From Chthonomonas calidirosea T49 (lineage in GTDB: Bacteria > Armatimonadota > Chthonomonadetes > Chthonomonadales > Chthonomonadaceae), in assembly GCF_000427095.1 (NCBI RefSeq), contig NC_021487.1, positions 3,209,241 to 3,273,240 on the forward strand: a DNA stretch of 64,000 nucleotides. Direction: 5' to 3'. Both the position numbers and the translations under genes were made by a program. Below are positions 3,500-7,294 of this stretch, piece by piece. The notes beneath the pieces were generated by a model, which was given only the letters and a program-made list of their open reading frames with translations, ran no database searches and was not told where the DNA came from. Numbering within the stretch: the first letter of the stretch is position 1; each line of letters starts with the position of its first letter.

Positions 3500-4066
3500 G
3501 TGCCGAAAGTAGATACCGCCGATTTTAAAAATGGGCTATCCATCATTGTAGATGGAGAAATCTACACCATTGTTTGGTTTCAACATCATAAGCCGGGAAA
3601 GGGAGGTGCCGTTATGCGAACGAAACTTCGTAATCTGCGCACCGGGGCTATCATCGATCGCACCTTCAACGCCGGTGAAAAGTTCGAACAGGCAGTGCTT
3701 CAAAGATACCCTATGCAGTATCTTTATCACCAGGATGATGAGTATGTGTTGATGAACCCGCAGACCTATGAGCAGGTCAGCGTCAACAAGGCGACGTTTG
3801 GAGAAGCGATCAAATATCTCAAAGATGGTATGGAAGTGACGGTGATCGAGCACGAAGGTCGAATTCTTGGGGCAGAAGTTCCCTACTTTGTCGAGTTAGA
3901 GGTCGTTGAAACGGACCCTGGCGTTAAGGGCGATACGGTTTCGGGCGGATCAAAGCCCGCTAAACTTGAGACAGGAGCTGTGATTTCCGTGCCCCTTTTC
4001 GTCAACGTTGGCGATAAGGTAAAGGTAGATACACGCACCGATACCTACTTGGAGAGAGTGAAGTAG
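3500..4066 (+). CDS. efp: Elongation factor P
   Basis: A 188-residue protein of the length usual for EF-P, with the KOW-like N-terminal domain and two OB domains. EF-P binds between the P and E sites and relieves ribosome stalling at polyproline stretches. The tip loop reads HHKPGKGGAVMRTKLRN; the lysine in KPGKGG is the residue modified by EpmA in many bacteria, so a lysine-type modification is possible, though no epm gene lies in the window. The C-terminal signature GDKVKVDTRTDTYLERVK is canonical. GTG start at 3500, preceded by AAGGAG at 3486-3491 and by a good promoter. Confidence 0.97.
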   Translation: MPKVDTADFKNGLSIIVDGEIYTIVWFQHHKPGKGGAVMRTKLRNLRTGAIIDRTFNAGEKFEQAVLQRYPMQYLYHQDDEYVLMNPQTYEQVSVNKATFGEAIKYLKDGMEVTVIEHEGRILGAEVPYFVELEVVETDPGVKGDTVSGGSKPAKLETGAVISVPLFVNVGDKVKVDTRTDTYLERVK

Positions 4067-4242: not shown

Positions 4243-5457
4243 ATGATGGCAAAGAATGGTTCCGAATCGACAAGACCCGTTTGGTTGAGCGATAATGTAG
4301 TCACCTTTCTGCAAAGGGTGTTTCTTACAACAACACTGATTGCGTTACTTCTCATAGGTTATCTGCTCTATGGGCTTCTTTCTGGACGATTGGCCGACGC
4401 TGCCCAAAGTACTCCAGAAGCCAAAGCCCATGCCATGTGGCTTGTACAGAATCTCTCCTTAGGTATAGATATCGTTTTGCCTGTGGCCATTCTCACCGGC
4501 TGTGTGCTGTTTTTGGAGAGTGAAGTTACCCCTATTGTGCTGCTGTTGTTGTCAGGGTTCTTCGCCTACGGTGTCAACTTCCTTATAGACTATCTCAGCG
4601 CCAACAACGCACGCATCAAGTACGGTCCTCTCTCTGCGGCAGCGCTGAGTGAGGTGAGAAATGTGGCCACCATGCTGCTTGTGCCTGGAATTCTGCTCTT
4701 TCTACGAGAGACCTTCCGTAGAATACGCGATGCCCGCTATCGGCAAGACCTGCTTCAGGTGAAGTATGGTGGCGATGTCAAAAAAGAAAATGTGCCTCGA
4801 GCGCTTATTGGGGCGTTAGCAAAATGTTGGCAGCTGCCCTATTGTCGCAGCAGCATTCGCGTGCGCTGCCCGATCTATCTGGCACGCACTCGCTGCTGGC
4901 GCGAGCGAGTAGGTTGTATGTGTGAGGAAAGCATTGTTATCCTCGCAATGGGTAAAAAAGATCGGGACGAAGAGGCACCCCAAGAGACCAAATCGGGATT
5001 TACGCCCATAGGTGACCTCATTACCAAGCATGAGGCGGAAAGCCAAAAGCAGATTCCCACACGTAAGGGGCCGCGTGGAGTGCGCATTCCCGTGAACCCC
5101 TATCTAAGCGCCGCGCAAAAACGCGAGCGCTGCCGCCGGTGTATTATCTACCAAGAGCACGAGAGGCAGAAGTACCAACTGGTCTCTAGCCTTGTCATCG
5201 TTGCCGTGCCCATCGTGGTGGTGCTAAACTTCAATTTGCTGCTAAACTGGATGACCTCTCTGCTGCAAGAGCTAGATGTCCTCATTGGAAAGCTTTCGTT
5301 TATTCCTGGAGGCACTCCGGAACCGCTCGTACATGTAACGAACCAGCTGACCGATTCTACCCTCATGGAGGGTATTCTAGTTATATGTCTCGTTTTGTTA
5401 GCGCTCTCGGCCGTCCTACGCGGCTTAGAGTATCTCTTCTTCAATCTACAAATTTAG
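4243..5457 (+). CDS. Polytopic membrane protein with cysteine-rich cytoplasmic segment (unknown function)
   Basis: I do not recognise the family. The 404-residue protein has four likely transmembrane helices in its first half (about 27-47, 73-90, 96-117, 139-155), then a soluble stretch, then two more helices (about 297-318 and 376-395). The soluble stretch holds six cysteines in 33 residues (195, 201, 209, 218, 225, 227; spacing C-x5-C-x7-C-x8-C-x6-C-x-C) followed later by a CRRC pair near 283, which looks like metal or Fe-S ligation. A charged region rich in Lys, Glu and Asp separates them. ATG start with GAGGAG upstream. It ends 30 bp before the AccB-like gene, so it is probably co-transcribed with the AccB/AccC-like pair. 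Confidence 0.6.
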   Translation: MMAKNGSESTRPVWLSDNVVTFLQRVFLTTTLIALLLIGYLLYGLLSGRLADAAQSTPEAKAHAMWLVQNLSLGIDIVLPVAILTGCVLFLESEVTPIVLLLLSGFFAYGVNFLIDYLSANNARIKYGPLSAAALSEVRNVATMLLVPGILLFLRETFRRIRDARYRQDLLQVKYGGDVKKENVPRALIGALAKCWQLPYCRSSIRVRCPIYLARTRCWRERVGCMCEESIVILAMGKKDRDEEAPQETKSGFTPIGDLITKHEAESQKQIPTRKGPRGVRIPVNPYLSAAQKRERCRRCIIYQEHERQKYQLVSSLVIVAVPIVVVLNFNLLLNWMTSLLQELDVLIGKLSFIPGGTPEPLVHVTNQLTDSTLMEGILVICLVLLALSAVLRGLEYLFFNLQI

Positions 5458-5487: not shown

Positions 5488-5928
5488 TTGGACTTTGAAG
5501 AGTTAGAACGCCTTGTTGATCTCATACAGCAGGCCTCCATCTGCGAAATCACGCTTAAACGGGGGGATCAGCGCATCACTATAAGACGCTCTCTCCACCC
5601 TGTCTTTCCACCAAATCAGGAGATGTGTCTCGCTACCTCCGAGGACGAAATGGAGCTGGCCGAAACATCTCTTAGTGAGGAGTCTCTCAGAACAGAGACC
5701 GCTTACGTTAAGGCCCCCCTCGTTGGTATTTTTACCCATGTGCGCCCTCAAGTAAAGGTGGGTACGCCGGTGAATGAAGGCCAAGTGATCGCCCAGATCG
5801 AGGCGATGGGCATTAAAAATGAGGTTGTTGCGCCCATCAAAGGAGTCGTGCAGGAGGTATTTGTGGAGGACATGCAGCCTGTAGAGTACGATCAAGAGCT
5901 TTTTCTGATTACCTCGGAGAGGCCATAA
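5488..5928 (+). CDS. AccB-like biotinyl/lipoyl domain protein lacking the canonical biotinyl lysine
   Basis: A 146-residue protein with the layout of the biotin carboxyl carrier protein of acetyl-CoA carboxylase: a short N-terminal helix, an acidic linker (about 45-72) and a C-terminal biotinyl-type fold (73-146; [20 protein letters not shown], then the hairpin, then [22 protein letters not shown]). In biotinyl proteins the hairpin reads EAMKM or similar and the Lys carries biotin. Here it reads [10 protein letters not shown], so Gly108 is at the biotinyl position and a Lys follows two residues later. I checked the codons (ATG GGC ATT AAA AAT). The lipoyl motif DKA is also absent. TTG start at 5488 after GGGAGAAAAGG. 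Seven bases separate it from the AccC-like gene. It may be a diverged AccB or an unbiotinylated carrier. Confidence 0.8.
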
Positions 5929-5935
5929 CGCCATT

Positions 5936-7294
5936 ATGTTCAAGAAGATACTGATTGCCAATCGGGGCGAGATCGCTGTGCGCATTCTACGCGCTTGTCG
6001 AGAGATGCGCATCAAGACCGTGGCGATCCACTCTACCGCGGATACCGATTCCCTCCATGTCCAACTCGCCGACGAATCGGTGTGCGTGGGGCCGCCGGCT
6101 CCGAAGGATAGCTATCTCAATATACCCAATATCATTAGCGCCGCTCTGATCACCGGCGCCGATGCCATCCATCCTGGGATCGGGTTCCTCTCAGAGCGAG
6201 CGGTTTTTGCCGAGGCTTGCGAGGCACACGGCATCAAGTTTATCGGCCCGTCCGCCAGTGTCATGGAACGTATGGGCGACAAGGCAACGGCTCGCGAAAC
6301 CATGCGGGCCGCGGGAGTGCCTATCGTCCCCGGCTCCAATGGGCCGGTTGCGGACGAACAAGAGGCCTTAAGCTTAGGGCGCAAAATAGGCTTTCCCTTG
6401 CTCATCAAGGCCGCCCACGGAGGTGGGGGGCGTGGCATTCGGCTCGTGCAAAACGAAGAGGAGTTGGCACGTCAAATTGAGCTGGCGCGATCAGAAGCGG
6501 CCGCTGCCTTCGGAAGTTCGGCCGTCTACCTTGAAAAATTTGTTGAGGAGCCGCGCCATATTGAGGTACAGGTTCTTGCCGATGAACACGGCAATGTGCT
6601 GCATCTAGGGGAGCGCGAATGCTCCGTGCAGAACCTGCGGCATCAGAAACTGATTGAGGAGGCACCGGCTGTCTGTTTAAACCCAGAACAACGTCGCCGC
6701 CTTGGCGAGGCCGCCGTTCGTGCTGCGCGCGCTATCGGTTATACCAATGCGGGCACCATCGAGTTTTTGGTAGATCGTCGAGGCGAGTTCTACTTTATGG
6801 AGATGAACAAGCGGCTTCAAGTAGAGCACTGCGTTACCGAGATGGTGACCGGAATAGACATTGTGAAAGAGCAGATTCGCATTGCTGCCGGTGAGAAACT
6901 TTCCTTCAACCAAAAAGAGATTCGGTGGCAAGGACACGCCATCGAGTGCCGTATCAACGCCGAAGACCCCGATAACAACTTTGCTCCCTCCGCCGGTCGC
7001 ATCGAGCAGGTCGTATTGCCAGGAGGCTATGGGGTGCGGGTAGACACACATATTATGTGTGGATATATGGTGCCACCCTATTACGACCCGCTGTTGGCCA
7101 AAGTCATCGTTTGGGATAACGATAGGGCGGGAGCCATTGCGCGGATGCAGCGCTGTCTTCAAGAGATGCGCATCGAGGGCATCAAAACCAACATCGGTTT
7201 TCAATTGCGCATCCTCAACAACGCCTTCTATCGGCGTGGTGAACTCACCACAGATTTTGTACAACGTCGTATTCTTAGTGCGCAGCGGTCTTAA
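5936..7294 (+). CDS. AccC-like ATP-grasp protein (biotin carboxylase family) with altered active-site motifs
   Basis: 452 residues, the usual length of biotin carboxylase, with the N-terminal Rossmann-like fold, ATP-grasp (glycine loop [10 protein letters not shown] near 161-170, Lys158) and C-terminal Biotin_carb_C domain ([13 protein letters not shown], Arg retained). Overall family assignment is secure. Several signature positions differ from E. coli AccC as I know it: PGYGFLSEN is PGIGFLSER (Ile82 for Tyr82); CSxQRRHQK is [10 protein letters not shown], with one extra residue between the Gln and the His; EMNTRxQVEHPVTE is [14 protein letters not shown]. Tyr82, Gln233 and His236 are in or beside the biotin pocket in the E. 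coli enzyme. Together with the Gly-for-Lys change in the neighbouring carrier, this suggests relaxed or changed biotin use. Otherwise it would form malonyl-CoA precursors with a carboxyltransferase, not present here. Confidence 0.88.

Follow-up and report, generated by a model that had tools for sequence, protein, structure and literature searches.

The closest described systems are the plant BADC proteins, which lack the AMKL motif and are presented in the relevant passages of PMC11926652 as the 'glue' of the BC–BCCP subcomplex in plastid acetyl-CoA carboxylase; in passages of PMC7712654 they are alternatively competitors of BCCP for BC, and between these two accounts the choice of glue or inhibitor is disputed. 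A hairpin without the biotinyl lysine, CYIEQLGGQFPIESDV, is printed as a biotinyl domain in a section of PMC9578262, with Gly at the lysine place; it would be the hairpin of a BADC, and its presence there suggests that plant surveys may count BADC among their 'BCCP' genes. The evolution of BCCP was left unanalysed in the corresponding part of PMC3199775 because the domain is short. Among the matches listed from open-licence PubMed Central, no paper dealt with a lysine-less bacterial AccB or with acetyl-CoA carboxylase subunits of Armatimonadota.

The window, a 64,000-nucleotide stretch of the Chthonomonas calidirosea T49 genome, contains a forward-strand gene, accB2 (5488–5928), recognized from its open reading frame and the PF00364 and TIGR00531 profiles, which starts with TTG, encodes a 146-residue AccB/BCCP-like protein and is separated by 7 bp from accC (5936–7294) on the same strand. 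As in bacterial AccB proteins of the TIGR00531 family, an N-terminal AccB domain (residues 1–35, 5488–5592, aligned to the E. coli AccB N-terminus), which we take to be the AccC-binding and oligomerizing part, is joined by a linker to a biotinyl-type β-barrel (residues 70–142, 5695–5913). Unlike them, AccB2 has neither biotinyl lysine nor thumb, and its TIGR00531 score of 76.7 bits lies below the equivalog cut-off of 115.2 (PF00364, 52 bits). Its EAMGIKNEV segment lies opposite EAMKMMNQI of E. coli AccB (4hr7), so that AMG at residues 106–108 takes the place of the (A/S)MK hairpin. The codons and this alignment bear out the reading of the initial annotation, AMGI with Gly108 (ggc, 5809–5811) for the biotinyl lysine. 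The thumb segment is shorter than in E. coli AccB and five alignment columns shorter than in all 46 copies of the canonical paralogue AccB1 compared; the insertion with conserved Tyr and Pro is absent, no Tyr follows the VG.F motif, and a passage of PMC11926652 reports both thumb residues as necessary in E. coli. The alignments support the view that the normal attachment site in AccB2 of C. calidirosea is unable to accept biotin.

The fold of AccB2 is predicted to be retained. In an AlphaFold2 model built from a 28-row alignment, residues 71–140 of the barrel have a pLDDT of 95–98 and the N-terminal region forms a helix and two strands with a pLDDT of about 73–80; the pTM of 0.52 is due to the linker. 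The top three Foldseek matches of the model were the E. coli biotinyl domain (1bdo, the best), the P. horikoshi BCCP and Arabidopsis BCCP1.

Elsewhere in the genome (3,437,861 bases), a search for the biotinyl/lipoyl family gave eight places above the cut-off, three of which are biotin-carrier-like by motif: AccB2 of the window (AMGI), AccB1 (L003) and L005. AccB1, 169 residues long from its first Met and encoded at 1041413–1041919 (approximately 1.04 Mb), has an EAMKV hairpin and the thumb, and is thus the second accB with an EAMK motif that the initial annotation had advised looking for. It lies (L186, G000:C1:1036400-1047000) between genes that by eye resemble pheT and homoserine dehydrogenase, and a hom-like gene, again judged by eye, adjoins AccB1 in 15 of 17 stretches outside the class as well as in the genome of the window. 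L005, a 197-residue EAMKV protein, adjoins another biotin carboxylase, L010, which shares 50% identity with AccC of the window. L001, L002 and L006 look lipoyl-type by motif; L004 and L008 are the remaining two places. Carboxyltransferase-family genes occur as a neighbouring pair encoding 308 and 345 residues at 2.20 Mb, which from size and order are probably accD and accA, and as a 555-residue protein at 2594875 (2.59 Mb), with which L010 and L005 may form a propionyl/methylcrotonyl-type enzyme. One ligase of the BirA/LplA/LipB family scores above the cut-off.

A second accC, which the initial annotation had also suggested seeking, did not emerge as an ACC-type copy in the genome search, whose other biotin carboxylase matches were L010 and L011 (25% identity over 241 residues). 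A second ACC-type AccC that might serve AccB1 was considered and not found, L010 sitting beside its own EAMK carrier, L005; a scan of genome contigs with a single protein as the query gave no match. No ACC-type biotin carboxylase other than AccC of the window was found, and in AccB1 the cell has an orthodox carrier for it. AccB2 is thus BCCP-like, lacks the biotinylation lysine and coexists with an AccB1 carrying EAMKV.

Relatives show the same arrangement of an AccB paralogue, mostly beside accC, that keeps its N-terminal domain and barrel and in many lineages is missing the lysine and usually the thumb too. AccB2 was read in 28 of the 31 genomes of the class (none from G001, G016 and G026, which are 64–78% complete): 14 copies have the lysine; of the 14 that do not, five have Asp, five Asn, two Arg and one Ser, and the window copy has Gly. 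The loss is shared by close relatives, since a supported group of six genomes on the AccC tree, including that of the window, is Lys-less throughout, its five other members reading QSMDI. With matches restricted to E-values within 1e-60, a single biotin carboxylase, of ACC type, is found in 17 of the 31 class genomes, so in them AccC must charge AccB1; in ten of these AccB2 is Lys-less, and AccC there cannot have given up biotin. From these relatives we infer that AccC of the window charges AccB1 as well, in a genome that also has a second carboxylase with its carrier.

At the level of the phylum, 201 Armatimonadota genomes were searched with a profile, and 196 gave a carrier-like match, with at least two places in 180, one in 16 and none in 5. 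The 101 AccB2 copies fetched from outside the class (60, then 40, plus L179, caught while fetching AccB1) were the best-scoring rows and not a random draw, so low-scoring families are under-represented among them. Three (G055, G079 and G103), without accC, efp and gene X, were left out, and the remaining 98 comprise 39 with Lys, 27 with Arg, 23 with Gly, four with Thr, two with Ser, two with His and one with Asn. The AccB2 counted, from 126 Armatimonadota genomes, divide into 53 with Lys, which may act as carriers, and 73 without, in which the residue is Arg (29), Gly (24, as in the hairpin printed in part of PMC9578262 and taken as BADC), Asn (6), Asp (5), Thr (4), Ser (3) or His (2). One named locus from outside Armatimonadota (L167, Micavibrio) reads EAMK.

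AccB1 keeps its lysine in 79 of 79 copies read: 46 (29 from the class and 17 others) and a further 33 chosen because AccB2 of their genomes lacks it, a row labelled B1_G048 having turned out to be AccB2 and been dropped from the AccB1 set. These cover 48 of the 73 genomes with a Lys-less AccB2; two further AccB1 genomes (G079 and G103) belong to rows excluded from the AccB2 count. At least two carrier-like places, the second not thereby proven to be AccB1, occur in 69 of the 73. The exceptions are G030, G058, G151 and G175 (64, 80, 98 and 86% complete, respectively), G151 being nearly complete. The gene accC lies beside accB2 in 23 of the 28 class loci and on 93 of the 101 fetched stretches outside the class, which vary in length; it is absent from the accB2 stretch in G013–G015 (Lys-bearing) and in G029 and G030 (Lys-less), and where found is on another contig. 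'accB' genes adjacent to accC in Armatimonadota are often not the biotin carrier.

In a quick AccB tree (134 rows and 145 columns, the hairpin excluded, with a program warning of few columns), AccB1 and AccB2 are parted by one branch with an SH-aLRT support of 95, which suits a single early duplication. By parsimony the lysine state changes at least 12 times on the best AccC tree (79 genomes) and 15 times on the AccB tree; such counts give no direction and do not tell loss from gain, and the variety of replacements, seven in all, speaks for repeated loss. The AccC tree is also a quick one, with 34 of its 76 inner branches well supported and many weak forks, and nine independent Lys/non-Lys pairs fall on supported branches.

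On balance, these sequence patterns make it slightly more likely than not that AccB2 belongs to acetyl-CoA carboxylase as a structural or regulatory subunit without biotin, working in the manner of plant BADC. Its N-terminal domain and barrel would bind AccC, AccB1 or both, and AccB2 would fill a share of the carrier places of the AccB–AccC subcomplex, thereby assembling or tuning the enzyme as glue or brake in the particle, while AccC would charge biotin on AccB1 only. With a structural role of this kind, the lysine would be free to become Arg, Gly, Asp, Asn, Ser, Thr or His. Like BADC, AccB2 is BCCP-like and Lys-less and coexists with a BCCP that carries the biotinylation motif; unlike BADC, it is bacterial, its gene lies mostly beside accC, and the lysine is absent patchily within one paralogue group, with 53 of 126 members retaining it. 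The likeness is one of description, so that AccB2 may be said to work like BADC and not to be BADC, and its origin, we would guess, was independent. The epsilon subunits of actinobacterial acyl-CoA carboxylases are helper subunits of a biotin-dependent carboxylase and in this resemble the role proposed for AccB2; they differ in fold, which is not known to be that of BCCP.

A broader proposition, to which we give even weight for and against, is that all Armatimonadota run acetyl-CoA carboxylase with a carrier, AccB1, and with an AccB2 mostly encoded beside accC, AccB2 having arisen in one early duplication and lost its lysine about a dozen times with the fold kept. Bacteria would then have arrived at the BADC principle independently, with Lys-bearing and Lys-less states standing side by side. 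If so, the enzyme of the committed step of fatty-acid synthesis can recruit a non-catalytic copy of its carrier outside plants, and the occurrence of AccB2 with and without the lysine in related genera, alongside one accC and one canonical accB, makes the dummy-carrier role testable by simple reconstitution.

The same sequence evidence would also fit an inhibitor, with AccB2 competing with biotinylated AccB1 for AccC and lowering acetyl-CoA carboxylase flux under some condition, as in the competition model for BADC stated in a passage of PMC7712654. Glue and inhibitor are not separable from sequence. In most genomes read accB2 is a neighbour of accC, an arrangement that fits a stoichiometric subunit no less well, and we consider the inhibitor rather unlikely.

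Constraint on AccB2 is concentrated in its two domains. Among the 73 Lys-less copies, V79 and G80 are kept in 100%, F82 in 90%, G92 in 97%, G119 in 99%, V132 in 97% and Y134 in 84%, whereas drift is seen at E105, M107, K108 and F110, positions that do not vary among 46 AccB1. A signature around PVEYGQ is present in AccB2 and absent from AccB1. A full-length thumb occurs in 46 of 46 AccB1; among AccB2 it is present in 10 of the 53 copies with the lysine, in 25 of the 73 without it and in none of the 28 of the class; the thumb is therefore often missing even where the lysine is retained. The linker has a high dN, whereas the N-terminal domain and barrel have a low one: in three close relatives of genus g7 (QSMDI) dN is 0–0.024 in the N-terminal domain and 0.02–0.08 in the barrel, with dS high or saturated. 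In the AMG family, omega is 0.06–0.31 for AccB2, looser than for AccC of the same genomes (0.01–0.04), and because dS is saturated in many pairs these values are only a rough sign of constraint.

A dispensable relic, drifting since the duplication, would account for the repeated loss of an active-site residue and for the fast divergence of the linker; it is nevertheless improbable, because the N-terminal domain and barrel have low dN, fold-critical columns are kept at 97–100% in Lys-less copies and a carrier-like match is present in 196 of 201 genomes, with at least two in 180. The stops counted within the AccB2 rows of G029, G046 and G165 simply mark where intact frames end. That the window copy is a pseudogene or reflects a sequencing error was rejected, given the Lys-less relatives and the low dN among close ones. 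The initial annotation had judged a chance error unlikely, and the absence of the lysine from the five grouping genomes and from 73 of 126 in the phylum upholds that judgement.

AccB2 might instead be an autoregulator of the accBC operon in which the N-terminal domain does the work and the barrel persists as a mere remnant. The gene precedes accC on the same strand, and the N-terminus of E. coli AccB reportedly takes part in autoregulation. Yet in the AMG family constraint on the barrel is roughly equal to that on the N-terminal domain, and in g7 the barrel is strongly constrained; a pure N-domain regulator would need neither this constraint nor the PVEYGQ signature, so that autoregulation as the sole role seems quite improbable.

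AccC of the window looks intact. Like bacterial AccC of the TIGR00514 family, the 452-residue protein is full-length, scores 700 bits against a cut-off of 626.5 and keeps the conserved ATP-grasp and biotin-site residues. K116, K158, K238, E276, E289, N291, R293, E297 and R339, whose catalytic roles we take as given, are kept in 37 of 37 aligned AccC, a selection from 82 extracted. It differs from E. coli AccC in two lineage traits that the initial annotation had read correctly: Ile82 for Tyr82 (atc, 6179–6181), in the segment opposite HPGYGFLSE, and the QNLRHQK loop (6629–6649), one residue longer than QRRHQK. The Lys and Cys in the active-site motif segment (6800–6841), also as annotated, are family traits, and the active-site E, N, R, Q and E are kept there. 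In one relative (L092, AccC of G010) this motif reads EANTRLQVEH for EMNTRLQVEH, and the same genome has an ESMRI AccB2.

The initial annotation had further taken the substitutions on both partners as coordinated, an idea not borne out when independence was tested on the AccC tree. Across 79 genomes, AccB2 has lost the lysine in 8 of the 16 in which AccC has Ile82 and in 26 of the other 63; where the loop insertion is present the figure is 27 of 60, and where it is absent 7 of 19. In the nine independent pairs, Ile82 differs in one, in the direction opposite to Lys loss, and the insertion in one to three, mostly but not always in the same direction; the differing pairs are too few for significance to be within reach either way. 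Both are lineage traits, and the counts reveal no clear link between them and Lys loss. Of the proposal that the pair had lost or changed its use of biotin, the part concerning AccB2 stands, the normal site being absent and the loss shared by relatives, and the part concerning AccC falls. Lys110 (aaa, 5815–5817) had been offered as a substitute biotin site and was discarded as not conserved, since the 13 further class AccB2 that lack the biotinyl lysine carry L, H, A, P, M or Q there. That both partners gave up biotin and use ATP to carboxylate another carrier or Lys110 is barely credible: the named substitutions are truly present, but the AccC traits are unlinked to Lys loss, the catalytic residues are invariant, no other ACC-type biotin carboxylase was found, and the genome has both a canonical AccB1 and a BirA/LplA-family ligase.

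Upstream of accB2, in the same direction, lie efp (3500–4066) and gene X (4243–5457), whose product by eye resembles a conserved membrane protein, giving the order efp–X–accB2–accC. Gene X adjoins accB2 in 28 of 28 class loci and in 45 of the 101 loci outside the class, where efp is present on 43 of the 101 stretches. It has no Pfam or NCBIfam match at 1e-3 and is 42–46% identical to its counterparts in L161–L166; that it might tether the carboxylase to the membrane is no more than a suggestion. In several AccB2 loci (L032, L101, L105, L166 and others) approximately 380–490 bases and a small gene separate accB2 from accC. In L032 and L039 the translation of this gene, of which the window has no equivalent, resembles by eye a short pseudopilin. 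Gene X has Cys-rich stretches (RCPIYLARTRCWRERVGCMCEE and KRERCRRC).
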